A stretch of 39,295 nt of DNA from Candidatus Polarisedimenticola svalbardensis (GTDB lineage: Bacteria > Acidobacteriota > Polarisedimenticolia > Polarisedimenticolales > Polarisedimenticolaceae), in the NCBI GenBank assembly GCA_014764515.1, contig JACXWD010000021.1:1-39295 (forward strand), read 5' to 3'. The notes beneath the pieces are model-generated. The model saw nothing but the letters and a program-made list of their open reading frames with translations. It had not been told where the DNA came from and did no database searches. Below are positions 14,168 to 27,597 of this stretch, piece by piece. The position numbers and the translations under genes are program-made. Every line of letters starts with the position of its first letter. Positions within the stretch are counted from its first letter, which is position 1.

Positions 14168-15217
14168 ATGAGGCTGGCCGGAGTAGGGGCGGGATTTCCG
14201 CCGCATTACTATGACCAGGCGACCTTGCTTGCCGAACTCAAGGAGATCTGGAAGGAGAAGAACCGCAATCCGGCTACCCTGGATCGGCTGCATCGCAACG
14301 TGCTGGTGAACGGGCGTCACCTGGCGCTGCCGTTGGAAGCGTACAGAGAGTTGAACGGCTGGGGTGATGCCAACGACGCCTGGATCCGTGTCGCCGTGGA
14401 AGTGGGGGAGGCGGCTGTACGGGACGCTCTCGCTGTTTCCGGGCTCGCCCCGGGAGACATCGGGACACTATTGTTCACCACGGTAACCGGAATCGCCACC
14501 CCGTCCATCGACGCCCGTCTGATGAACCGACTCGGCCTTCCGGCCTCGGTCCGGCGCCTCCCGCTGTTCGGCCTGGGCTGCGTAGCCGGGGCGGCCGGCA
14601 TCGCCAGGGCATCGGACTTCGTGAAAGCCTGGCCGGACGAGGCGGCGGTTGTTCTGTCGGTGGAGCTTTGCTCCCTGACCCTCCAGCGGGAAGACCTCTC
14701 GGTTCGCAACCTGATCGCCACCGGCCTGTTCGGCGATGGAGCGGCGGCAGCCGTGGTGGTCGGCGAGAACCGGGAATCGACAGGGCCACGGGTTTTGGGA
14801 AGTCGTTCGGTGTTCTACCCGGATACGGAAAAGGTCATGGGGTGGCACATGTCCGAAAGAGGGTTCGGCCTGATCCTGTCGGCGGAGGTTCCCGAGATGG
14901 TGCGCCGGCATCTCCGCAGGGATGTGGATGATTTTCTCGGGAGCTTTGATCTGGATCGATCGGGCATTTCACGCTGGATATCCCATCCCGGCGGCCCCAA
15001 GGTGCTGGAAGCGATGCAGGAGGCGCTGGAACTTCCCGACACCGCACTCGATTCCAGTTGGCGATCCCTTCAGGAACTGGGGAACCTTTCAAGCAGTTCG
15101 GTCCTGATGGTCCTCAAGGACACGATGGAAAATGACCGGCCGCCCCAGGGGAGCTACGGTCTGATACTGGCCATGGGGCCCGGATTCTGCACCGAACTGG
15201 TGCTGCTGCAGTGGTAG
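14168..15217 (+). CDS. type III polyketide synthase (alkylresorcinol/alkylpyrone synthase-like)
   Basis: Chalcone/stilbene-synthase-fold ketosynthase that extends an acyl-CoA starter with malonyl-CoA and cyclises the product. The 349-aa protein retains the triad Cys138 (GLGCVAGAAG), His273 (SHPGGPKVL) and Asn306 (GNLSSSSVL), plus GLFGDGAAAAV and the C-terminal MGPGF loop. Bacterial members next to ICMT-like and flavin genes (SrsA, BpsA types) make long-chain alkylresorcinols or alkylpyrones from fatty acyl starters; I infer the same here. GGAGG and GAGGG precede ATG 14168. The 3' end overlaps the methyltransferase start by 7 bp, so the three genes are one translationally coupled operon. Confidence 0.93.
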   Translation: MRLAGVGAGFPPHYYDQATLLAELKEIWKEKNRNPATLDRLHRNVLVNGRHLALPLEAYRELNGWGDANDAWIRVAVEVGEAAVRDALAVSGLAPGDIGTLLFTTVTGIATPSIDARLMNRLGLPASVRRLPLFGLGCVAGAAGIARASDFVKAWPDEAAVVLSVELCSLTLQREDLSVRNLIATGLFGDGAAAAVVVGENRESTGPRVLGSRSVFYPDTEKVMGWHMSERGFGLILSAEVPEMVRRHLRRDVDDFLGSFDLDRSGISRWISHPGGPKVLEAMQEALELPDTALDSSWRSLQELGNLSSSSVLMVLKDTMENDRPPQGSYGLILAMGPGFCTELVLLQW

Positions 15218-15720
15218 GGTACCTGGGACTGATCGGGGCTGTGGCGCTCATGCGCCTTGTTGAGCTGAAAATCTCCAATCGGAACGTAAGGCGGCTCCTG
15301 GCCGCCGGCGGTGTGGAGTCCGGCGCCGGGCACTACCCGGCCATGGTCCTGGTGCACACGTTCTGGCTCGTATCCTGCGTTGTGGAAGTCCTGGTCATGG
15401 AGCGCCCGTTCGTTCCGGTTCTCGGCTATCCGATGGTGGCGTTGCTCCTGTGCGCCATCGCCCTGCGCTACCAGGTGATCCGGACCCTGGGTCCCCGTTG
15501 GACCACCCGGGTGATCACCGTGCAGGGCGCGCCAAGGATCACCACCGGACCGTACCGCTGGTTGCGGCATCCCAACTACCTGGCCGTTGCACTGGAGATC
15601 GTGGCGTTGCCTTTGATCCATTCGGCCTGGATGACGGCGGTCGTTTTCGGTCTGGCCAACCTGCTGGTGCTTCGAATCCGGATCGCTGTGGAGGACGAGG
15701 CCCTGGAGGCAAGCGCTTGA
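15211..15720 (+). CDS. isoprenylcysteine carboxyl methyltransferase (ICMT) family membrane methyltransferase
   Basis: This 169-aa integral membrane protein has about four or five hydrophobic segments and the ICMT/phospholipid-methyltransferase signature GPYRWLRHPNYL (113-124) with the later acidic RIAVEDEAL (158-165), which form the SAM site. Next to type III PKS genes, ICMT-like enzymes (SrsB in Streptomyces, BpsB in Bacillus) O-methylate phenolic lipids or pyrones; I infer that role. GTG 15211 lies inside the end of the PKS gene. The stop overlaps the TTG start of the oxidoreductase (TTGA, 15717-15720). Confidence 0.9.
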   Translation: MVGYLGLIGAVALMRLVELKISNRNVRRLLAAGGVESGAGHYPAMVLVHTFWLVSCVVEVLVMERPFVPVLGYPMVALLLCAIALRYQVIRTLGPRWTTRVITVQGAPRITTGPYRWLRHPNYLAVALEIVALPLIHSAWMTAVVFGLANLLVLRIRIAVEDEALEASA

Positions 15721-16817
15721 CCCGGCCGGATCTGCTGGTGGTAGGTGGCGGGCCGGTCGGCCTGGCGGTGGCGATCCGGGCCCGTCAGAAGGAGCTGTCG
15801 GTCCGTCTTATTGATTCCGCTTCACCGCCGATGGACAAAGCGTGTGGAGAAGGGCTGATGCCCGACGGAGTCGGTCTGCTGGAACAGCTGGGTGTCCAGG
15901 CCGGCGGGCTGGAACACAAACCGTTCGGTGGCATCCGTTACCTCTCCGAGGAGGTCACCGTTGAGGGCCTGTTCCCCGGGCCGCCAGGTCTCGGTGTGCG
16001 GCGAACCGAACTGCACCGCGCCCTGGTGGATCGAGCCGTTGAGAGCGGCGTCGACCTGCACTGGAACAGTCCGGCCCGGGGTTTTACGCCGGCCGGTGTC
16101 CTGGGTGAGAGTGGAGAACTGCAGGCCGGCTGGATCGTGGCTGCCGACGGTCTGAACTCGGTGATGCGACGAGCCGCCGGCCTGGAGGGCAGGGAGGCAC
16201 GGCGCAAACGGTTCGGTACCCACAAGCATTTCGAAATCGAACCGTGGGCCGACAGGGTCGAGGTGTACTGGGCCGAAGGTTGCGAGGCGTACGTCACGCC
16301 GGTGGGGCCGAATTCAATAGGCGTTGCGATTTTGTGGAGTGGCGACAAGCGTCCCTGGCCCGAACTGCTCCGGCTGTTTCCCGAACTCCGGGATCGCTTG
16401 CGGCAGGCCGGCTCCGGCTCGGCCGAGCGAGGCGCAGGCCCGATGGAGCAGCGCGCCCTGGCGGTTTATCGCGGCAACCTGGCCCTGGCAGGAGATGCGG
16501 CCGGGTACCTGGACGCCATCACCGGGGAAGGGTTGGCGGTCGGGTTCCGGCAGGCGTTTGCCGTAGTGGACGCCATCGTTCAAGGCGATCTGGCCGGCTA
16601 TGCCAGGGAGTATCGCCGGATCGTAAGGGTGCCGAACGCCATGACCCGGTTGTTGATGAAGATCGGCGAGAAGCCTGAGTTGCGTAATAAATTTCTCTGG
16701 ACCCTGGCGGAGAATCCGGGCCTGTTCGACCGCTTGCTGGCGGTCATGACCCGGTCGATCCCCGCCCGCGCCCTCGGCATCGGGAACGCCGTCCGCCTCC
16801 TCCGCACGCTGTTCTAA
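15717..16817 (+). CDS. FAD-dependent oxidoreductase/monooxygenase (SrsC-like position)
   Basis: The 366-aa flavoprotein has an N-terminal Rossmann motif VVGGGPVG (8-15), the segment KACGEGLMP (41-49) shared with geranylgeranyl-reductase-like flavoenzymes, RRTELHRAL, a mid-protein VAADGLNS and the FAD-ribose motif LAGDAAGYLDAITGEGL. In srsABC the third gene encodes a flavin hydroxylase that oxidises the methylated phenolic lipid toward a quinone; this gene holds the same position. A role in ring hydroxylation is inferred; double-bond reduction on an isoprenoid is the main alternative. TTG 15717 has GGAGG (15705-15709) upstream. The stop codon begins a terminator hairpin. Confidence 0.88.
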   Translation: MTRPDLLVVGGGPVGLAVAIRARQKELSVRLIDSASPPMDKACGEGLMPDGVGLLEQLGVQAGGLEHKPFGGIRYLSEEVTVEGLFPGPPGLGVRRTELHRALVDRAVESGVDLHWNSPARGFTPAGVLGESGELQAGWIVAADGLNSVMRRAAGLEGREARRKRFGTHKHFEIEPWADRVEVYWAEGCEAYVTPVGPNSIGVAILWSGDKRPWPELLRLFPELRDRLRQAGSGSAERGAGPMEQRALAVYRGNLALAGDAAGYLDAITGEGLAVGFRQAFAVVDAIVQGDLAGYAREYRRIVRVPNAMTRLLMKIGEKPELRNKFLWTLAENPGLFDRLLAVMTRSIPARALGIGNAVRLLRTLF

Positions 16818-16836
16818 AAGGGGTCAGGCCCCTTTT
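16816..16836. terminator. bidirectional terminator overlapping both stop codons
   Basis: AAAAGGGG (16816-16823) and CCCCTTTT (16829-16836) form a perfect 8-bp stem with loop TCAGG. The left arm starts within the TAA of the flavoprotein gene and the loop contains the stop codon of the convergent PP2C gene. A/T runs on both outer arms suit termination from either side. Confidence 0.7.
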
Positions 16837-17666
16837 CGCCTTTCGGGCCGGTACAGGATGAACGCCAGGTCGTCCGGCTTGTGAGGCTCGCCACGGTGAG
16901 GCTTCGCCATCCTGCGCAGGGCGGTGGAAGCCAGAGCCCCGGCGCAGTCTTCGAGCTTTCCCTTGCGTATCCGTTCCACGATCTCTTCCTCGAACAGGTT
17001 GTCGTACAGACCGTCACTGCCCAGGAGCACCGTGTCTCTCTGTGCCAGACCGAGCCTGGGGCCGATCTCGATCCTCATGTCCGGGATCCCGACGATGTTG
17101 GAGACCTCGTTGCGCTGGGCGTGGTTCATCGCCTCGCCCTCATCCATGAGGCCGGCTTCAAGGGCATAACCGACAGGGCCATGGGACAGGGTGCGGTGCT
17201 TCATCTTGCCCAGGCCACCGACTACCAGGATGTCCGAATCGCCGACATGGCAGGACCTCATGCGCCCTTCCTGGAGCAGGACCACGGCGATGGTGGTGGC
17301 GGCGCCGGTTCCCAGTTCACGGACCCTCTTGTTGGCCAGTTCGACCCCATTGAGCGCCGAGGCTCTCAGCTTGTTCCCGGCGGCGATACCTTCTTCTACA
17401 GCCTCGGCCATCGCCTCCACTGCAAGCCTGGAAGCCTGGGCGCCGCCGGCGTAGCCGCCGACCCCGTCGGCCACCACCAGCACCCCGGAATCATCGGGGC
17501 AGGGGATCAGGGCGGCGGAATCCTGGTTGGCCGATTCCCGGTCCGGTGACTTGACGCAGAACAATGCGACCCGGCCCCCGGCGAACGGATGCAGTTCCGC
17601 CCTCTCCATGTTGGAATCGATGAAGAACACAGGCTTCCCGGTGGCTGCTGGGGTCTCGTCGTTCAA
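16824..17666 (-). CDS. PP2C-type serine/threonine protein phosphatase
   Basis: The 280-aa metal-dependent phosphatase shows the PP2C motifs RESANQDS (43-50), VVADGVGGYAGG (64-75, metal-binding Asp67), TTIAVVLL, CHVGDSDILVV, LLGSDGLYDNL and the final PDDLAFIL. It has no membrane segment, so it probably acts in the cytoplasm on Ser/Thr phosphoproteins. TTG 17666 is chosen because GGGAG lies 5 nt upstream; TTG 17696 is a longer alternative and ATG 17609 a shorter one without a ribosome-binding site. No kinase is beside it. It is divergent from the phosphate porin gene (213 bp apart), so a link to the phosphate locus is possible but not shown. Confidence 0.9.
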   Translation of the reverse strand: MNDETPAATGKPVFFIDSNMERAELHPFAGGRVALFCVKSPDRESANQDSAALIPCPDDSGVLVVADGVGGYAGGAQASRLAVEAMAEAVEEGIAAGNKLRASALNGVELANKRVRELGTGAATTIAVVLLQEGRMRSCHVGDSDILVVGGLGKMKHRTLSHGPVGYALEAGLMDEGEAMNHAQRNEVSNIVGIPDMRIEIGPRLGLAQRDTVLLGSDGLYDNLFEEEIVERIRKGKLEDCAGALASTALRRMAKPHRGEPHKPDDLAFILYRPERRKGA

Positions 17667-17879: not shown

Positions 17880-19088
17880 ATGCGAAAGGTTGCGTTGATT
17901 ACTTTGTTGTCTCTCGTCCTGGCCCCGGTGGCATTTGGGGGAGAGGAAGAGGAAATGGCGGTCTTCCACGACAAAGGCTATCTGGTCTCGGAGTCGGAAG
18001 ACGGTAAAACCAAGTACTGGGTCGACGGCCGGATCATGCTCGATTACGGCGACATCTCCAGCGACAGCGGCGAAGCGCTGGGTGTGGCGTCAGGCTGGGA
18101 GACCCGCCGGGCCCGCCTTGCCGTCAAGACCATATTCAACGGTGAGTGGGCCGGTGAGTTCGACATGGACATCGCCGACAATGAAGTCGAGATCAAGGAC
18201 TTCTGGATGTCCTACATCGGATTCGACAACACGATCGTCAAAATCGGAAACCACAAGGTGCCGACCAGCCAGGAGGAGTTGACCTCCTCCCGCCACCTGA
18301 CGTTCATGGAACGTTCCCTGATGAACACCTTCAACGTCGGCCGCCGCATCGGCGTGAGCTACAACCGCTGGGGCGAGAAGTACCTGGTCATGGGCGGTTA
18401 CTTCGGTGAAGAGCCTGCAGCAGGTGAAGACGAGGGTGAAGACGAGGCGATGGGATTCGGCCTCCGCGCCGCTTTCGCGCCGATCAACACAGATGACAAC
18501 GTGCTGCACTTCGGTTTTTCCTACAACGACTTCGAGCCTGACGCAGGCAGCGATGACGAAGTCCGGTTCAGGACCCGCGAATTGCACCTCATGCCCCGGT
18601 TCCCGAACACCGGCAATGTGGACATGGTCAGCGATTACCAGATCCTCGGCGTCGAACTGGCGGGGCAGATGGGCGCCTGGTCGTTCCAGTCCGAATACAT
18701 GAAAGCCGATCTGACCAGGATGGCCGGAGCCCCGGACGCTTCGTATGACGGTTACTACGCCTTCGTGAGCTGGATCCCGTTCGGCGGGCAGCGCACGTAC
18801 TCCATGGACTCCGGTGAGTGGGGCGCCGTCAATCCCAAAGGTAAACGTGGTGCCCTGGAGCTCGCCCTGCGGGCCAGCAACGTGAATCTCAACGATTTCG
18901 ATGCCGGCGTCGAAGGCGGTGAAGCCGACAACATCACATTGGGCCTCAACTGGTACGCCAACGATCATGTCCGCATGATGTTCAACTACATCAAGCAGGA
19001 CAACGACGAGTTTGCCGACGGCGACGGAGATTTCCTCCCCGACGACGATCTCGACATCATTGCCGTTCGGTTCCAGCTGACCTTCTAA
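17880..19088 (+). CDS. phosphate-selective porin O/P family (OprP-like) outer-membrane protein
   Basis: The 402-aa precursor has a signal peptide (MRKVALITLLSLVLAPVAFG) and a beta-barrel with alternating aromatic strands that ends in LTF, the usual barrel-assembly signal. Family landmarks are YWVDGRIMLDYG, TRRARLAVKTIFNGEWAGEFDMDIA, IVKIGNHKVPTSQEELTSSR and NTFNVGRRIGVSYN, matching the OprP/OprO family of anion-selective porins. It is acidic overall, unlike Pseudomonas OprP, so phosphate specificity is inferred from the downstream phosphate transport genes. AGGAGG precedes ATG 17880. A strong terminator separates it from the next gene, so it may be expressed far more than the rest of the locus. 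Confidence 0.85.
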   Translation: MRKVALITLLSLVLAPVAFGGEEEEMAVFHDKGYLVSESEDGKTKYWVDGRIMLDYGDISSDSGEALGVASGWETRRARLAVKTIFNGEWAGEFDMDIADNEVEIKDFWMSYIGFDNTIVKIGNHKVPTSQEELTSSRHLTFMERSLMNTFNVGRRIGVSYNRWGEKYLVMGGYFGEEPAAGEDEGEDEAMGFGLRAAFAPINTDDNVLHFGFSYNDFEPDAGSDDEVRFRTRELHLMPRFPNTGNVDMVSDYQILGVELAGQMGAWSFQSEYMKADLTRMAGAPDASYDGYYAFVSWIPFGGQRTYSMDSGEWGAVNPKGKRGALELALRASNVNLNDFDAGVEGGEADNITLGLNWYANDHVRMMFNYIKQDNDEFADGDGDFLPDDDLDIIAVRFQLTF

Positions 19089-19102
19089 TCGGATGATCTC
19101 TA

Positions 19103-19139
19103 AGACCAGGGGGCTTTTGCCCCCTGGTCTTTTGTTTTT
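19103..19139 (+). terminator. strong rho-independent terminator after the porin gene
   Basis: AGACCAGGGGG (19103-19113) pairs perfectly with CCCCCTGGTCT (19120-19130) around a short CTTTTG loop, followed by TTTTGTTTTT. Since the following genes have the same orientation with only 43 bp more before the next start, read-through or a hidden promoter must drive them. Confidence 0.92.
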
Positions 19140-19182
19140 CAACCGCCAGGATTCCAGGTGGATGCGGTGACAGGGAGAAGTG

Positions 19183-19791
19183 ATGGCTGAAATCAAACCA
19201 AGGTTCGAGTTCCGAACTTTCGCCCGTGGGCTGGGATCGGTCGAGAGACGGTTCCGCGAACTCGCCCCTGTTGAGCGTATCCGGGAAAGCTCCGAGATCT
19301 ACATCATGTCCAGGGGCAACAACGAGAACAATACCAAGCTCCGCGACGCCAAAATGGATATCAAGGTGTTCGTCCGGGAAGACCGTGGTCTGGAGCAGTG
19401 GAACCCCAGGATGAAAGGCGAGTTCCCCATGGAGACCGCCGTCCTTCGCGACGATGTGTTTCCGGCCCTGGGAGTCAATCATCCTGAATTCAAAAGAGAG
19501 GTCTACTCCCTTGAACAATACCTCTCCGAGGTGATCGAGCCTCATCCCGACCTGCAGGCGGTATCGGTTCACAAGCGGAGGTTCGGCTTCACCATCAACG
19601 ACTGTATTGCGGAAATGGGCGAGATCTATATCAACGGCGCGAAAATTTATACAGCCAACCTGGAATCCGTCAACGTGGATGCGATCCTAAACGGGATGAA
19701 AATGGTCGGTCTCGATGGCTATGAAAACATCAACTACCTCATGGCGATCAAGAAAGTGATCGGTATGGAAAAAGGCCCGATTCCCTGGTAG
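19183..19791 (+). CDS. divergent CYTH/triphosphate-tunnel-like protein, uncharacterised
   Basis: I place this 202-aa soluble protein tentatively in the CYTH (triphosphate tunnel metalloenzyme) superfamily. The strand order looks right: RFEFRTF at 7-13 where ExExK normally sits, a basic strand NNTKLRDAKMDIKVFV (49-64), EQWNPRMKGEFPM (71-83), HKRRFGFTINDCIAEMGEIYI (130-150), then KIYTANLESVNVDAIL and a C-terminal helix with YENINYLMAIKKVIGM. The canonical ExExK is degenerate (first Glu and Lys replaced), so activity or metal use may differ. It sits directly before a canonical CYTH gene (26 bp) and inside a phosphate-transport run. It may bind or process polyphosphate; this is inference. ATG 19183 has GGGAG 5 nt upstream. 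Confidence 0.6.
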   Translation: MAEIKPRFEFRTFARGLGSVERRFRELAPVERIRESSEIYIMSRGNNENNTKLRDAKMDIKVFVREDRGLEQWNPRMKGEFPMETAVLRDDVFPALGVNHPEFKREVYSLEQYLSEVIEPHPDLQAVSVHKRRFGFTINDCIAEMGEIYINGAKIYTANLESVNVDAILNGMKMVGLDGYENINYLMAIKKVIGMEKGPIPW

Positions 19792-19817
19792 GCAAGGATC
19801 TGGTTCAGGAGCAGCAA

Positions 19818-20279
19818 ATGGGAAAAGAGATCGAAAGAAAGTTCCTCGTTTCGGGCGACGACTGGCGATCGCTAGGGAAGGCGATTCGATACCGTCAGGG
19901 TTACCTGTCTTCGACCAAGGAACGTGTCGTGCGGGTTCGCACCATCGATGACAGCGGTTTCCTGACAATCAAGGGCATTACCGAAGGGTTGTCGCGCCTG
20001 GAGTTCGAATACGACATCCCTGCCGACGACGCCGGGAGTCTTCTGGACCTCTGCGAAAAACCGCTGATCGAAAAGACCCGGACCAAGATCCCCATCGGAG
20101 AGCTGGTATGGGAGGTGGACGAGTTCTTCGGTGACAACGCCGGATTGATCGTGGCGGAGGTGGAGCTTGAAGATGAGAGCCAGTCCGTCGACCTGCCGTC
20201 CTGGATCGGAGAGGAAGTGTCCGGGGATCCGCGTTACTTCAACTCCAACCTGATCAAACATCCGTACACAAGCTGGTAG
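19818..20279 (+). CDS. CYTH domain protein, probable inorganic triphosphatase
   Basis: The 153-aa protein is a compact triphosphate tunnel metalloenzyme. It has ExExK in KEIERKFLV (residues 3-11), YRQGYL, the RVRVRTI-type basic strand (VVRVRTI), FLTIKG, RLEFEYDIP, KTRTKIPIGELVWEVDEF and the late AEVELEDE, which supply the basic and acidic residues lining the tunnel. Short CYTH proteins of this size (NeuTTM type) hydrolyse tripolyphosphate. It lacks the CHAD domain found in longer YgiF-like proteins. The position between a divergent CYTH-like gene and a DASS transporter gene, 31 bp before the latter, suggests a role in phosphate or polyphosphate metabolism. AGGAG lies before ATG 19818. Confidence 0.9.
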   Translation: MGKEIERKFLVSGDDWRSLGKAIRYRQGYLSSTKERVVRVRTIDDSGFLTIKGITEGLSRLEFEYDIPADDAGSLLDLCEKPLIEKTRTKIPIGELVWEVDEFFGDNAGLIVAEVELEDESQSVDLPSWIGEEVSGDPRYFNSNLIKHPYTSW

Positions 20280-20310
20280 AGCCTGACGCCATCGCAGGAA
20301 AGGGAAATCC

Positions 20311-21915
20311 ATGGCCGACAAGGTAGAGCCATTCGACCCTCTGGACATGAGCCACTACCGTGTGGAGAAGCTCAAGGTCCGTCAGAAAAAAGGGGTAGAA
20401 CGGTGGATGGCGATCCTCGGCATGCCGCTGGCGATCCTCTCCTTCCTGGTCATCTACTTCGGACTGGATGTAGCCTTCCTGCAGAACATCGATCCGTCCG
20501 GTCTGGGCAGTACGGCGCTGAAGCGGTTCGAGGAGCTGGGTCCGGAGGGGTTCTCGAGAGCCAATATCGCCATGCTGGCAGTCTTTGCCGCCGCGATAAT
20601 TCTCTGGGTTACCGAGGCGGTCCCGAACTACCTGACTTCGCTGATTGTGATCATCACCATGGTGCTCACCAATGTGATCTCGGAGGTTGATGCGTACCAC
20701 CAGCTCGGCCACCGGGTGATGTGGCTGAACATTCTTTCCTTCGTACTGGCCAGCATGCTGGTGAAGACCCAGGTGGCGAAACGGTTCGCCTTGTGGTTCA
20801 TCGTCAGGTTCGGCAAGAGCGCCTCCTCCATATTCCTCAGTTTCATTGTCATCAACGTCGTCCTGTCGGCCTTCATTTCGGCCACCACCGCCAAGGCCGC
20901 CATCCTGTTGCCGATATTCATGGTCATCGCAGCGGTCTACGGAGCCGATGGATCCAAACGGAACAATTTCGGCAGGAACCTGGTTCTGCAGAACCTGTTC
21001 CAGATCAACATTTCCGCCGGAGGCTTCATCACAGGGTCCGGAGCCAACCTGCTTGCAGGCATGCTGATCGCAGGCGCCATCGGGAGCCCGGACTTCCTCT
21101 ATGGCGACTGGCTGGTGGCAGCATTCCCGATCTCCATGGCCCTCATCTTTATCGGCTGGATTGTGGGAACGCGCTGGATTTTCCCCATGACTCCGGAGGA
21201 ACGACGGCCCCAGATCGAAGGGGGCATGGAGCGGCTGAAACAGGAGCTCCATAAACTCGGACCCCTGAAATGGGAAGAGATCCGGGCGGTGGCGATATTC
21301 CTGGTGGTTCTCGCCCTGTGGGTGACGGACCGTTACCACGGCATCAGCAAGACGGCCACCGCCTTCCTGGGAGCGGTGACCGCGCTGCTTCCGAGGGTCG
21401 GCATCGTCAAATGGAATGACGTCGACATCCCGTGGCACCTCCTGCTGTTCTCGGCCGGGGCCTACACCCTGGGGGCTGGTCTCAAGACCACCGACCTGGC
21501 ATCGCTGGCGGTGGACGCCGGCTTCGATAAGCTGGGGCTGGGGGAGGGCACCCCGTTCTGGGTTCTTTACCTTCTGTTGACCGGCGGCATGATCTTCAGT
21601 TCGCTGCTGTCCCAATCCAAGACCATGCGAACCCTGGTATTCGTGCCGATCGCCATCGGAACGGCCCAACGTTTCGGCTTCAGCGTGCTCAGCCTGGCAT
21701 TTCCCGTTGCTCTTCTGATCGAGCACGTCTACGCGCTGCCGTTCAACTCCAAGCCTGCCGCCCTGCTTTACCTCACCGACCATTACAGCTGGTCGGATAC
21801 CTTCAAGTTCGGATTCGTCATGCTGGTTATCGGATGGATCATGAGCATCCTGATGGGCGAGACGTACCTGCGCTTTCTCGGATACACACCGGACGGTGTG
21901 TTCGGCCTCTTTTAG
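20311..21915 (+). CDS. SLC13/DASS family anion transporter
   Basis: The 534-aa inner-membrane protein has about twelve transmembrane segments and the fold signatures of the divalent-anion:Na+ symporter family (ILWVTEAVPNYLTSL near residue 95, DVDIPWHLLLFSAGAYTLGAGL near 375). The two substrate/Na+ motifs, normally SNT, read SATTAKAAILLPI and SQSKTMRTLVFVPIAI, so the ligand may not be a dicarboxylate. The N-terminus (40 residues) is hydrophilic, with no SPX domain. In yeast, SLC13-like Pho87/90/91 carry phosphate; the location beside DUF47 and PiT genes makes phosphate a reasonable guess, with sulfate, arsenate or citrate as alternatives. AGGAAAGGG precedes the ATG. Confidence 0.88.
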   Translation: MADKVEPFDPLDMSHYRVEKLKVRQKKGVERWMAILGMPLAILSFLVIYFGLDVAFLQNIDPSGLGSTALKRFEELGPEGFSRANIAMLAVFAAAIILWVTEAVPNYLTSLIVIITMVLTNVISEVDAYHQLGHRVMWLNILSFVLASMLVKTQVAKRFALWFIVRFGKSASSIFLSFIVINVVLSAFISATTAKAAILLPIFMVIAAVYGADGSKRNNFGRNLVLQNLFQINISAGGFITGSGANLLAGMLIAGAIGSPDFLYGDWLVAAFPISMALIFIGWIVGTRWIFPMTPEERRPQIEGGMERLKQELHKLGPLKWEEIRAVAIFLVVLALWVTDRYHGISKTATAFLGAVTALLPRVGIVKWNDVDIPWHLLLFSAGAYTLGAGLKTTDLASLAVDAGFDKLGLGEGTPFWVLYLLLTGGMIFSSLLSQSKTMRTLVFVPIAIGTAQRFGFSVLSLAFPVALLIEHVYALPFNSKPAALLYLTDHYSWSDTFKFGFVMLVIGWIMSILMGETYLRFLGYTPDGVFGLF

Positions 21916-21946
21916 GCTTTGACTCCTCGGCCGATTGGAGCGTGAC

Positions 21947-22591
21947 ATGGGTATCTTCTTCAAAAAAACAAGGGACCTTGAGAACGAGATCGATCTGTTC
22001 CTGGACATGATCGTGAACGGCTCCCTGCAGTTTCAGAAGGGTATCGAATACTATCTCCATGACCGCAAAGAGGAGTTCGAAGGCAGTTGCCGGCGGCTTT
22101 CGGAGATTGAATCCCAGGCCGACGAGCTTCGGCGCAAGGTGGCGAGGAAGCTGTACGTTCACACCCTGATCCCCGATTCGAGAGGGGATGTTCTCGGCCT
22201 TCTGGAAAGTTCCGACAAGGTGTTGAACCAGCTGGAGGAAACCCTCTCCCAGTTCTCCGTGGAGTTCCCGGAGATCATCCCCGAGGTTCGAGAACTGTTC
22301 CAGGAGCTGGCCGATACGGCGGTACTGTCGGTGGATAGCATGGTCCGGGGCGTACGAGCCTACTTCCGCGACCTCTCGGCGGTCCGGGATTATCTTGGCA
22401 AGGTGAACTATTACGAGAAGGAGACCGATCGCATCGCCGAAGAGATCAAGCGCATCGTTTTTCGCCAGGACCTGCGTCTCTCCCACAAGTTCCACCAGCG
22501 CTATTTCGCCTTGCACATCGAAGCTGTCGCCGATGAGGCGGAAGACGTCTGTGACCGCCTAGCCATCGCATGCATCAAGCGAGATGTTTAA
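21947..22591 (+). CDS. DUF47/PhoU-like accessory protein (TIGR00153 type)
   Basis: The 214-aa all-helical cytoplasmic protein begins with the family's MGIFFKKTRDLENEIDLFLDM and continues through RLSEIESQADELRRKVARKLY, LLESSDKVLNQLEETL and YYEKETDRIAEEIKR. DUF47 proteins are PhoU-like regulators usually encoded directly before a PiT permease, as here (3 bp between stop and start). They are thought to tune PiT activity; metal-binding ExxD-like residues in the helices fit this. GGAG is 6 nt before ATG 21947. Confidence 0.93.
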   Translation: MGIFFKKTRDLENEIDLFLDMIVNGSLQFQKGIEYYLHDRKEEFEGSCRRLSEIESQADELRRKVARKLYVHTLIPDSRGDVLGLLESSDKVLNQLEETLSQFSVEFPEIIPEVRELFQELADTAVLSVDSMVRGVRAYFRDLSAVRDYLGKVNYYEKETDRIAEEIKRIVFRQDLRLSHKFHQRYFALHIEAVADEAEDVCDRLAIACIKRDV

Positions 22592-22594
22592 GCG

Positions 22595-23635
22595 ATGATC
22601 TGGCTCTTTCTTCTCAGTGGGCTCTTTCTCGGGTGGTCGCTGGGAGCCAATGATGCCGCCAATATCTTCGGCACGGCGGTGGGAAGCCGCATGGTCCGTT
22701 TCAGGACCGCCGCCATCGTCTCCGGCATCTTCGTGATCCTGGGGGCGGTCATCAGCGGCGCCGGAGCGAGCCACACCCTGGGAAAGCTGGGTGAAATCAA
22801 CGCCATTGCAGGCGCCTCCACGGTTGCACTGGCAGCAGCGGTGACCGTGGCCTGGATGACCAAGGCCGGTTTGCCGGTTTCCACATCCCAGGCGATCGTC
22901 GGCGCCATCGTGGGCTGGAACCTGTTCTCCGGATCGCCTACCGATATGGGTGCGCTGACCAAGATCGTCTCGACCTGGGTGCTGTGCCCGGTGCTGGCCG
23001 GCCTGTTCGCCATCGTTCTTTACAAGGCGTTCAAGCTGTTCCTCGGCAAGAACCGGCTTCATCTGCTGGAGATCGACGCCTACACCCGTGCGGCGCTGAT
23101 CCTGGTAGGCGCCTTCGGCGCCTACTCCCTTGGAGCCAACAACATCGCCAACGTGATGGGTGTGTTCGTGCCGTCCTCACCGTTTAGTGATTTCAGCCTG
23201 TCCGGGTTCAGCTTTTCCGGAATTCAGATCCTGTTCCTGGTGGGGGCGATCGCCATCGCAGTGGGGATATTCACGTATTCGTTCAAAGTGATGGCGACGG
23301 TGGGAAACGAACTCTTCAAGTTGACCCCGGTGATGGCGCTGATCGTGGTCCTCTCCGAATCTCTGGTCCTGTTTCTATTCGCCTCCAGGGGACTGGAGTC
23401 ATGGCTCCTGTCTCACGGCCTGCCGACAATCCCGCTGGTTCCGGTTTCCAGTTCTCAGGCGGTGATCGGAGCAGTCGTAGGGATCAGCCTGGCCCGGGGA
23501 GGGAGGGGCCTGGATCTCAAGACCCTGTTCCGTGTCGGGTCCGGGTGGGTGACCACACCGGCGTTCTCGACCCTGCTGGCGTTCATACTTCTGTTTATCG
23601 TGCAGAACGTGTTCGAGCTGGCGGTTCACCAGTAG
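22595..23635 (+). CDS. PiT-family inorganic phosphate permease
   Basis: The 346-aa membrane protein shows the internal duplication of the PHO4/PiT family: GANDAANIFGTAVGSR (17-32) and GANNIANVMGVF (180-191), and the paired PVSTSQAIVGAIVG (95-108) and PVSSSQAVIGAVVG. It should import inorganic phosphate (as metal phosphate with H+, or Na+-coupled). Arsenate often enters by such carriers, which makes the arsM module 3 kb away noteworthy. It is translationally coupled to DUF47. No clear terminator follows before the convergent hydrolase gene. Confidence 0.95.
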   Translation: MIWLFLLSGLFLGWSLGANDAANIFGTAVGSRMVRFRTAAIVSGIFVILGAVISGAGASHTLGKLGEINAIAGASTVALAAAVTVAWMTKAGLPVSTSQAIVGAIVGWNLFSGSPTDMGALTKIVSTWVLCPVLAGLFAIVLYKAFKLFLGKNRLHLLEIDAYTRAALILVGAFGAYSLGANNIANVMGVFVPSSPFSDFSLSGFSFSGIQILFLVGAIAIAVGIFTYSFKVMATVGNELFKLTPVMALIVVLSESLVLFLFASRGLESWLLSHGLPTIPLVPVSSSQAVIGAVVGISLARGGRGLDLKTLFRVGSGWVTTPAFSTLLAFILLFIVQNVFELAVHQ

Positions 23636-23722
23636 GGAATACCGGACTCGGTTCCTCTATTCGGCCTACCGCTCTTGTCCCTGCCGTGCTGTAGAGAATG
23701 TTGTGCCGGCGAGGGCCGCCGG

Positions 23723-24376
23723 TCAAGTTTCTTCGGGAATCGGTGCGCCGATCTGGCCGATGACATGGACGACCGCTGTGGCAGCCTCTCCGGCCCTTCC
23801 GGGGAAAAGGTGAGAAGCGCCAGGCACTGCCTGCACCACCGCCTTCTCGCGGGTATTCCCAAGGGCGTGGCGGACCTCTTCCGGGCTGCCGAATTCGTCC
23901 TCGCTTCCCTGGACCACCCCGATCGGCGCCGAGATGGTTTCCGGTGCGCCCAGATCGTACTCCCGCACCGGCAGGCCGATGGCCACCATCCCGGCGATAC
24001 CGTGATGGGGATGCTCCTGCAGGTATTTCAGGGAGCATAGCGAGCCGAACGAATACCCGACCAGGTACAACGGTTTCCCCGACAGCAGGCCACGCAACCA
24101 GGCTGCTGCTGCTGCTACATCGTCGACCTCACCGCGGCCCTGGTCGTAGGCGCCGTCGCTTTGTCCGACTCCACGGAAGTTGAAACGCAGGGTGGTCCAG
24201 CCCAGCCGATGCAGCGCTCTCTCCACATGAAATACCACCGGGTTGCGCATGGTGCCGCCGTGGAGCGGATGGGGGTGGGCCACAACGGCGCCGGCTTCAG
24301 GGCAGTTGGCCACCCGCAGAAGAGCCTGGAGGCGTCCTGCCGGGCCGGGGATCCATAACTGGCGCACTTCACTCAT
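23723..24376 (-). CDS. alpha/beta hydrolase, COG2945-like
   Basis: The 217-aa cytoplasmic hydrolase contains HPHPLHGG (34-41), the oxyanion segment NFRGVGQSDG, the nucleophile elbow GYSFGS with Ser109, the late Asp in GSEDEFGS and His in ASHLFPG. These match the short alpha/beta hydrolases related to dienelactone hydrolase (COG2945). The substrate is unknown. No Shine-Dalgarno precedes ATG 24376; TACAAT 10 nt upstream suggests a very short or absent leader. It converges on the PiT gene with an 87-bp gap. Confidence 0.88.
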   Translation of the reverse strand: MSEVRQLWIPGPAGRLQALLRVANCPEAGAVVAHPHPLHGGTMRNPVVFHVERALHRLGWTTLRFNFRGVGQSDGAYDQGRGEVDDVAAAAAWLRGLLSGKPLYLVGYSFGSLCSLKYLQEHPHHGIAGMVAIGLPVREYDLGAPETISAPIGVVQGSEDEFGSPEEVRHALGNTREKAVVQAVPGASHLFPGRAGEAATAVVHVIGQIGAPIPEET

Positions 24377-26326: not shown

Positions 26327-27163
26327 ATGTCGAAAGAGCTGGAAACCATGCCGGACAGCCCGGAAAAAGTCAGGGACCTGGTCCGGGAGCGGTACGGGAA
26401 AGCGGCATCAAGGCAACCGGGAGGCTGCTGCGGCGGCGGCCGCAGTGCCGACAGCGTCGCCGAGTCCATCGGGTACTCCAGCGATGAAATCGGCTCGGTG
26501 CCCGACGGCGCCAACCTCGGCCTTGGATGCGGCAACCCTAACGCCCTGGCAGCTCTGCAGCCGGGAGAGACGGTCCTTGATCTGGGATCCGGCGCCGGCT
26601 TCGATGCTCTCATCGCCGCGCCCAGGGTCGGACCGACCGGCCGGGTGATCGGTGTAGACATGACGCCGGAGATGCTGGAGCGGGCTCGGACCAACGCCGT
26701 GGAAGCCGGCTACGCCGGGACGGTGGAGTTCCGGGAGGGGACTATCGAAGCCCTGCCGGTGGCAGCCGGTACGGTGGATGTGATCATTTCCAACTGCGTG
26801 ATCAACCTCAGCCCGGACAAGCCTGCGGTGTTCCGCGAGGCGTTCCGGGTCCTGAAACCGGGGGGGCGGCTGGCCCTCAGCGACATCGTGCTATCGGAGC
26901 CGCTGCCGGAAGATCTCCGGGACATGGCGGCCGGATACGTTGCCTGCCTGTCAGGCGCCCTTCAAGAATCCGAATACGTAGCCGCCATGACCGCCGCCGG
27001 TTTCGAGGACGTGAGCTGGACCCGGACACCGGCGTCGATGCTGTTCGATTCGTCAACCCTGGATCCGGAGGCGCTGGAGATCGCCGGGCAGGTCGGTGAG
27101 GCCAGGCTCAAGGAACTGGCGGACACGGTCTGGAGCTACCGGCTGGAAGCGCGCAAGCCGTGA
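26327..27163 (+). CDS. arsM: arsenite S-adenosylmethionine methyltransferase ArsM
   Basis: ArsM methylates trivalent arsenic in steps to methyl- and dimethyl-arsenicals using SAM. The 278-aa product has the SAM motif [15 protein letters not shown] (83-97) and the three arsenic-binding cysteines in conserved contexts: Cys68 (LGLGCGNP), Cys157 ([11 protein letters not shown]) and Cys207 ([10 protein letters not shown]). An extra pair Cys34-Cys35 (GGCCGGG) near the N-terminus is common in this family. GGGAGG precedes ATG 26327. The stop overlaps the GTG of the MarR gene, so the regulator is co-translated. Methylation of arsenic taken up as arsenate by the PiT carrier upstream is a plausible physiological link. 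Confidence 0.95.
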
Positions 27164-27597
27164 ACCGGTTCGCACCGGAGCTGATGGCCCTGGGGAGGGC
27201 GTTCGGCCTGTTCGAGCGGGACGCCATCTGTTGCGGCACGGTGTCCGTCGCCCAGAGCGCCGCGCTGCAGGAGTTGCTGCGCGGCCCCAGGGAGATCGGC
27301 AGGCTGGCCACCATCATGGGCGTCGCCCAGAGTTCCATGACCCGGCTGGTGGACGGTCTTGAGAAGCGGGGATGGGTGGAACGGGACAGGGCAGGGCAAG
27401 ACAGGCGGAGGGTGGAGGTCCTGCTCAGCACAGCCGGCCGGGAGGAGGCCACCCGCTTGAGCGGTCTGACCGAAGAAACCCTGTCCACGATCCACGATCG
27501 GATTCCGGCAGACAAACGGAAGCAGGTTCTGGAGTCGCTGAACCTGTTGCGCAAGGCGATCGAGGATGTGCGCTGCTGCGGTCCGGGGAAGGACTGA
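27160..27597 (+). CDS. MarR-family regulator with paired cysteines, candidate arsenic sensor
   Basis: The 145-aa regulator has a MarR winged helix: EIGRLATIMGVAQSSMTRLVDGLEKRGWVERDRAGQDRRRV (45-85). It is odd in carrying Cys24-Cys25 (DAICCGTVS) in the first helix region and Cys139-Cys140 (VRCCGPGKD) at the C-terminus, places that could come together in the dimer and bind As(III). It overlaps arsM as GTGA (27160-27163). I infer that it represses the palindrome-covered arsM promoter and is released by arsenite. The stop abuts the convergent neighbour's stop in TGATCA. Confidence 0.88.
   Translation: MNRFAPELMALGRAFGLFERDAICCGTVSVAQSAALQELLRGPREIGRLATIMGVAQSSMTRLVDGLEKRGWVERDRAGQDRRRVEVLLSTAGREEATRLSGLTEETLSTIHDRIPADKRKQVLESLNLLRKAIEDVRCCGPGKD

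Follow-up and report, generated by a model that had tools for sequence, protein, structure and literature searches.

Bacteria that draw on external polyphosphate are usually assumed to cleave it outside the cytoplasm and then to take up orthophosphate. The cellular role of tripolyphosphatases is an open question (PMC3440374). NeuTTM, a triphosphate tunnel metalloenzyme (TTM), is a specific tripolyphosphatase for which Tyr28 and Lys52 have been proposed as a dyad (PMC3440374). In Vtc4, the yeast VTC polyphosphate polymerase, basic residues occupy four acidic-patch positions of the hydrolases (PMC4641920). Among carriers, two Ser-Asn-Thr (SNT) motifs bind substrate and Na+ in DASS symporters, and the Na+ sites of exchangers carry basic residues (PMC7553777). 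The Asp residues of the two GANDVANA signatures of PiT permeases are considered essential for phosphate transport; CysP has Gly and Asn at these positions (PMC5840216). DUF47/PitR genes accompany pitA and Pit phosphate importers (PMC13170248), the assignment of PitR to the DUF47 family being our own reading. Here we describe a six-gene locus in Candidatus Polarisedimenticola svalbardensis (contig JACXWD010000021.1, 39,295 nucleotides analysed, hereafter the window). Its genes form a conserved, probably laterally acquired module, for which we tentatively favour a role in the handling of short condensed phosphates. The locus links a phosphate-type porin to two atypical carriers, a putative triphosphatase and a second tunnel protein, which makes it a testable genetic object for the role of tripolyphosphatases. 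It is also the first context for the family of the second tunnel protein, CYTHa, a family without a Pfam model.

The six genes follow one another on the plus strand at 17880–23635, separated by 91, 26, 31, 19 and 3 bp in the order porin to PiT (values in parentheses are those of the Pfam matches):

17880–19088, plus strand: OprP/OprO-type outer-membrane porin (PF07396, Porin_O_P, 8.7e-60, above the cut-off), with orthologues in the full loci
19180–19791, plus strand: CYTHa, a divergent protein of predicted triphosphate tunnel fold, 203 aa, start GTG at 19180 or ATG at 19183
19818–20279, plus strand: CYTHb, a canonical CYTH/TTM protein of NeuTTM type, 153 aa (PF01928, 2.3e-18)
20311–21915, plus strand: DASS/SLC13-family carrier, 534 aa (PF00939, Na_sulph_symp, 3.2e-49, above the cut-off; TIGR00785 just under its cut-off)
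21935–22591, plus strand: PhoU-like accessory regulator, DUF47/PitR (PF01865, PhoU_div/DUF47, 6.2e-22), adjoining the PiT gene in the loci
22595–23635, plus strand: PiT-family permease (PF01384, PHO4, 4.2e-51), of a subfamily that a motif survey sets apart by its STSQ/SSSQ and GAND/GANN motifs

CYTHb resembles the inorganic triphosphatases NeuTTM, ygiF and CthTTM, with full-length similarity to NeuTTM (2fbl) and canonical active-site residues, but its gene stands in an operon-like array that also encodes carriers and another, divergent tunnel protein. CYTHa is like Vtc4 in its predicted tunnel fold and in basic residues at some acidic-patch positions; unlike Vtc4, its model is closer to hydrolases (Z 12.5–13 for thiamine triphosphatase (ThTPase), ygiF and archaeal TTMs) than to Vtc chains (Z 8.2). 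The DASS protein belongs to the same wide superfamily as the SLC13-type phosphate carriers Pho90 and Pho91, yet it has no SPX domain (Pfam, 534 aa), and its Na+-site motifs are replaced by basic residues. Next to the DASS exchangers (LaINDY, plant DiT1), it has basic residues at positions that align with the Arg and His of DiT1, but it has Lys437 and Lys481 as extra invariant residues. PiT and DUF47 represent the same two families as the Pit–PitR phosphate import pair and are adjacent, with strongly correlated divergence; here, however, PiT carries STSQ/SSSQ and GANN motifs and is set among porin, CYTH and DASS genes. Pfam detected neither an SPX domain nor a VTC membrane domain in the six window proteins.

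Conservation of the gene set

We scanned 85,000 genomes with CYTHa as the query and found relatives in one genome each of Cloacimonetes, Bacteriovoracaceae and Balneolaceae, every one within a related locus. Profile searches matched CYTHa in 16 of 297 genomes of the window's phylum and in 11 of 245 genomes of the class of the Balneolaceae genome. The complete set was present in 15 loci, the window included, in at least four gene orders: porin-CYTHa-CYTHb-DASS-DUF47-PiT; CYTHa-porin-...-CYTHb-DASS-DUF47-PiT; porin-CYTHb-DASS-CYTHa-DUF47-PiT; and CYTHa-CYTHb-DASS-DUF47-PiT-porin. Three further loci (L097–L099) were interrupted by contig ends. The DASS position was occupied by TctC/TctB-TctA in L036 (6557–9628) and by TctB-TctA in L020 (10715–12758), which has neither CYTHb nor a nearby porin. 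A second locus type (L038–L041, L043, L044) comprised porin, CYTHa, CYTHb and a DASS of about 40% identity, without DUF47 and PiT; L038–L041 encoded two DUF4010 membrane proteins besides the CYTHa-like genes. Three remote CYTHa matches (L042, L045, L046) were not part of such a locus.

Pairwise identity matrices across the loci correlated among the six genes, with r = 0.86 for CYTHa–CYTHb and 0.93–0.94 within DASS–DUF47–PiT. This correlated divergence is consistent with joint inheritance, and shared phylogeny contributes to it. Since distant genomes contain this set too, and in different gene orders, the locus is not a chance string of genes. That CYTHa is missing from all 40 further genomes of the window's class would fit an accidental neighbourhood of unrelated genes, but the recurrence of the set across distant lineages, reordered and with correlated divergence, contradicts this explanation and leaves it practically no probability. 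We conclude that the six genes are a conserved module that resembles a functional unit rather than an accident. An earlier sequence-only reading of the window had listed the same six plus-strand genes, all of which are open reading frames. It had hinged on CYTH genes standing beside DASS/PiT genes in other genomes as well, and there they are. It knew of no described locus with this set, and we likewise found none in open-access literature searches, where absence is no proof. A PADLOC search for membership of a defence system gave no match.

In L032, L036 and L037, genes upstream of the locus and on its strand encode a histidine kinase together with a response regulator of the NarL/LuxR type, a possible regulator. 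In L033 (8207–9329, minus strand), the PiT gene of the locus is split into two overlapping open reading frames; an intact paralogue is located elsewhere in the genome (L079).

The two tunnel proteins

Pfam gave a clear family for five of the six locus proteins, the exception being CYTHa. CYTHb matched PF01928 above the cut-off, and its full-length PDB match was NeuTTM (2fbl/3typ, 1.5e-16). Residues E4, E6, K8, Y29, R39, R41, K52, E62, E64, K86, R88, D101, E114 and E116 were invariant in all 15 loci. The protein has thus retained the ExExK signature, the Y29/K52 catalytic dyad and the acidic patch. Judged by these residues, CYTHb keeps the active site of an inorganic triphosphatase and is a candidate NeuTTM-type enzyme.

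CYTHa matched no Pfam, NCBIfam or PADLOC model, and four distant members matched no Pfam model either, including PF01928. Its matches in the PDB profile search were at chance level, and an hhalign comparison with CYTHb was weak (P 0.057). No signal peptide was seen. The AlphaFold2 model built from four homologues (mean predicted local distance difference test score, pLDDT, of 91.3) consisted of eight strands and a terminal helix. Foldseek returned mouse thiamine triphosphatase as the best PDB match (3.6e-7), and VIA-align Z scores were 13.2 for PH1819, 13.1 for ThTPase, 12.7 for ygiF, about 11.6 for SaTTM and 8.2 for Vtc. The predicted structure therefore assigns to CYTHa a TTM tunnel fold that is nearer to the hydrolases than to Vtc, a fold that sequence profiles could not show; its earlier designation as CYTH-like is borne out by the model.

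Instead of ExExK, CYTHa has RxExR, invariant in the 14 of 14 loci covered. Further invariant residues, where covered, are Y41, K53, R55, K62, K79, K132, R134, E145 and E162. The protein retains E10, R12, Y41, K53, R55, K62, K132, R134, E145 and E162; R8 replaces the first Glu of ExExK, and K79 of the fifth strand stands where Glu is present in CYTHb. CYTHa thus appears intermediate between hydrolases and Vtc4 in its acidic-patch residues, with positions tentatively matched by strand order. In L042 (8655–10169, minus strand), a single gene joins a CYTHa domain to a Ppx/GppA exopolyphosphatase (PF02541, 2.4e-53), and another CYTH gene lies 2 bp upstream of this fusion gene.

The DASS and PiT carriers

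The two SNT motifs that mark Na+-coupled symporters (DASS-C) are changed in the DASS proteins of all 15 loci, where they read SAT and SKT; both Asn are lost and the second is an invariant Lys. K195, K437, R440 and K481 were likewise invariant in all 15 loci. The best PDB profile match was plant DiT1, with K195 aligned to its Arg and R440 to its His; this comparison with exchangers was made by alignment to DiT1. Pho90 was not among the PDB profile matches at E 0.01. The motif changes suggest an exchanger-like carrier of a strongly charged anion, and the two further invariant Lys would fit a more highly charged substrate. The AlphaFold2 model from three sequences reached a pLDDT of 40, and no structural claim rests on it.

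The PiT proteins of the locus kept the first signature Asp in 14 of 15 loci and had Asn in place of the second in all 15. Their STSQ/SSSQ motif differs from the STTH or STSH of canonical PiTs in some of the same genomes. The best NCBIfam match was the CysP sulfate permease (NF053884, 5.5e-23); at 81 of 400 bits it was far under the cut-off, and an assignment as CysP by NCBIfam was rejected. PiT plus DUF47 pairs of this subfamily also occurred outside the locus, one of them (L081) near a gene that by eye looks 5'-nucleotidase-like. A PiT-related protein of about 755 aa with a long extra part is encoded at 1564–3831 of L082 (G000 contig C170), and G157 and G304 encode similarly long forms.

Lateral acquisition

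Among 41 genomes of the window's class, CYTHa was found in this genome only. In the same-genus genome G001, both flanks were 77–84% identical to the window. A blastn comparison with its contig C20 placed one boundary:

23641, no strand: right-hand junction, where synteny with the sister genome restarts

C20 matched the window only from this position onward, 6 bp past the PiT stop codon, and carried unrelated genes upstream. Only the right junction was placed, as the G001 contig ends before the left one. Guanine plus cytosine made up 0.58 of the locus versus 0.633 of the flanks. In tetranucleotide composition, the locus correlated with the genome at 0.877, lower than the 0.94–0.98 of window stretches away from it. 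Given that the sister genome has no locus at the junction and that the composition is foreign, the locus was probably acquired laterally. Contamination of the metagenome-assembled genome (MAG) as its source was rejected on the identity of both flanks to the same-genus genome.

Proposed role and alternatives

Our preferred reading, to which we give somewhat less than an even chance, is that of a laterally spreading module for short condensed phosphates (pyrophosphate, tripolyphosphate or short polyphosphate), which would combine uptake or exchange with cytosolic splitting, coupled to phosphate balance. The porin, a member of PF07396, the OprP/OprO family of phosphate/pyrophosphate porins, would let phosphate chains through the outer membrane. 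DASS, exchanger-like and with a strongly basic site, or Tct in some lineages, would swap the polyanion for another anion across the inner membrane. In the cytosol, CYTHb would cleave tripolyphosphate to pyrophosphate and phosphate, and CYTHa, with its metal site rearranged, might bind the chain and process or sense it. PiT and its DUF47/PitR partner would balance the liberated phosphate. The proposal builds on the linkage and correlated divergence of the genes, the lateral acquisition, the predicted CYTHa fold, the intact CYTHb site and the altered carrier motifs; which substrate is moved, in which direction, and how the proteins share the work are what we infer. We also count the 5'-nucleotidase-like neighbour of the L081 pair in its favour. 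A bolder version, in which a mobile system imports intact short polyphosphates across both membranes by an exchanger-type DASS or a Tct carrier, for the pair of tunnel enzymes to cleave in the cytosol, is conceivable but doubtful; if true, it would involve the first bacterial inner-membrane carrier for condensed phosphate known to us.

Several points weigh against the condensed-phosphate module. A carrier that takes condensed phosphate across a bacterial inner membrane is not known to us. Carboxylates are the best-known substrates of DASS and Tct carriers, and the replacing Tct carrier in L036 retains its TctC receptor. The CYTHa–Ppx/GppA fusion is a single case, apart from the rest of the locus, and the response regulator upstream of three loci is of the NarL/LuxR type. 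Moreover, the second signature Asp, considered essential for phosphate transport (PMC5840216), is missing from PiT.

Alternatively, DASS or Tct might swap citrate or dicarboxylates, as a means, for example, of mobilising mineral phosphate or metal-phosphate complexes, with porin and PiT importing phosphate and the CYTH proteins acting as housekeeping enzymes or sensors. Such carboxylate exchange tied to phosphate supply is suggested by the interchangeability of DASS (PF00939, also CitMHS) with TctA/TctB/TctC, both families carrying chiefly carboxylates, and by the chloroplast dicarboxylate carrier DiT1 as the best PDB profile match. We consider it less likely but a real rival, as both carboxylate-holding SNT motifs are altered, the second Asn to an invariant Lys, and it explains neither the presence of two tunnel proteins nor the Ppx fusion. 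A system for sulfate or another oxyanion, with a CysP-like PiT and DASS as the sulfate carrier, is considerably less probable. It would accord with CysP as the best, though far sub-threshold, NCBIfam match, with the Asp-to-Asn change in the C-domain of PiT, as in CysP (PMC5840216), with genes downstream of L020 that by eye resemble sulfur metabolism, and with a PAP phosphatase (HAL2) 3.8 kb upstream in the window. However, HAL2 is part of the native flank common to the sister genome, the N-domain Asp of PiT is retained in 14 of 15 loci, and phosphate is indicated by the porin, the triphosphatase, the DUF47 protein beside PiT and the Ppx fusion.

The locus might also serve phosphate storage, with CYTHa as a VTC-like synthase or polyphosphate-binding sensor, CYTHb trimming or recycling tripolyphosphate, and the carriers supplying phosphate, as a substitute for or supplement to Ppk. 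The basic R8 and K79, where hydrolases have Glu, recall Vtc4 versus AtTTM3 (PMC4641920), again under strand-order matching. Of the first ten genomes with a PiT-containing locus, eight had no PPK1, and seven of those eight had no PPK2 either; PPK1 was present in 166 of 297 genomes of the window's phylum sample overall. In the class of the Balneolaceae genome, however, 6 of 11 locus genomes had PPK1, against 192 of 245 overall, and the window genome itself has PPK1 and two PPK2 genes, so that replacement of PPK as a general rule was not upheld. A stratified test of the locus against PPK1 absence gave p of about 0.03, with relatedness and MAG incompleteness ignored, and neighbouring genomes without the locus also had no PPK1. 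The absence of PPK1 in locus carriers is thus confounded by lineage and is a lead only. As CYTHa is, in addition, structurally nearer to hydrolases than to Vtc and keeps the acidic-patch E10, we regard storage, too, as less likely but a real rival.

The phosphate or condensed-phosphate theme of the sequence-only reading gains strength from the CYTHa–Ppx/GppA fusion, the DUF47/PitR–PiT pairing and the NeuTTM-like triphosphatase. A role of PiT and DASS in orthophosphate transport is not supported, with the second signature Asp gone from 15 of 15 PiTs and both SNT Asn from DASS. The analogy of the sequence-only reading to VTC and Pho91 turned out to be loose: two tunnel-fold proteins are there, but the Z score of CYTHa to Vtc is 8.2, lower than to the hydrolases, and Pfam found no SPX or VTC membrane domain. 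Its suggestion of a system that does not use Ppk fails in the window genome, given the PPK1 and two PPK2 genes there.

Other features of the window

Three further features accompany the locus:

within 17880–19088, plus strand: N-terminal signal peptide of the porin (by eye), with a Shine–Dalgarno-like GAGGAGG upstream of the gene
19102–19131, plus strand: terminator- or attenuator-like hairpin (13 bp stem, 4 nt loop, T-run) that sets the porin off from the five downstream genes
23705–23723, plus strand: terminator-like hairpin 3' of the locus (7 bp stem), weaker than that at 19102–19131

Elsewhere in the window, type III polyketide-synthase-like, methyltransferase-like and flavin-oxidoreductase-like genes are consecutive at 14168–16817 (by eye), and an arsenite-methyltransferase-like gene is followed by a MarR-like regulator at 26327–27597 (by eye). 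A sequence of about 28 bp between two convergent genes (16816–16843) has copies on many contigs of this and the same-genus genome.

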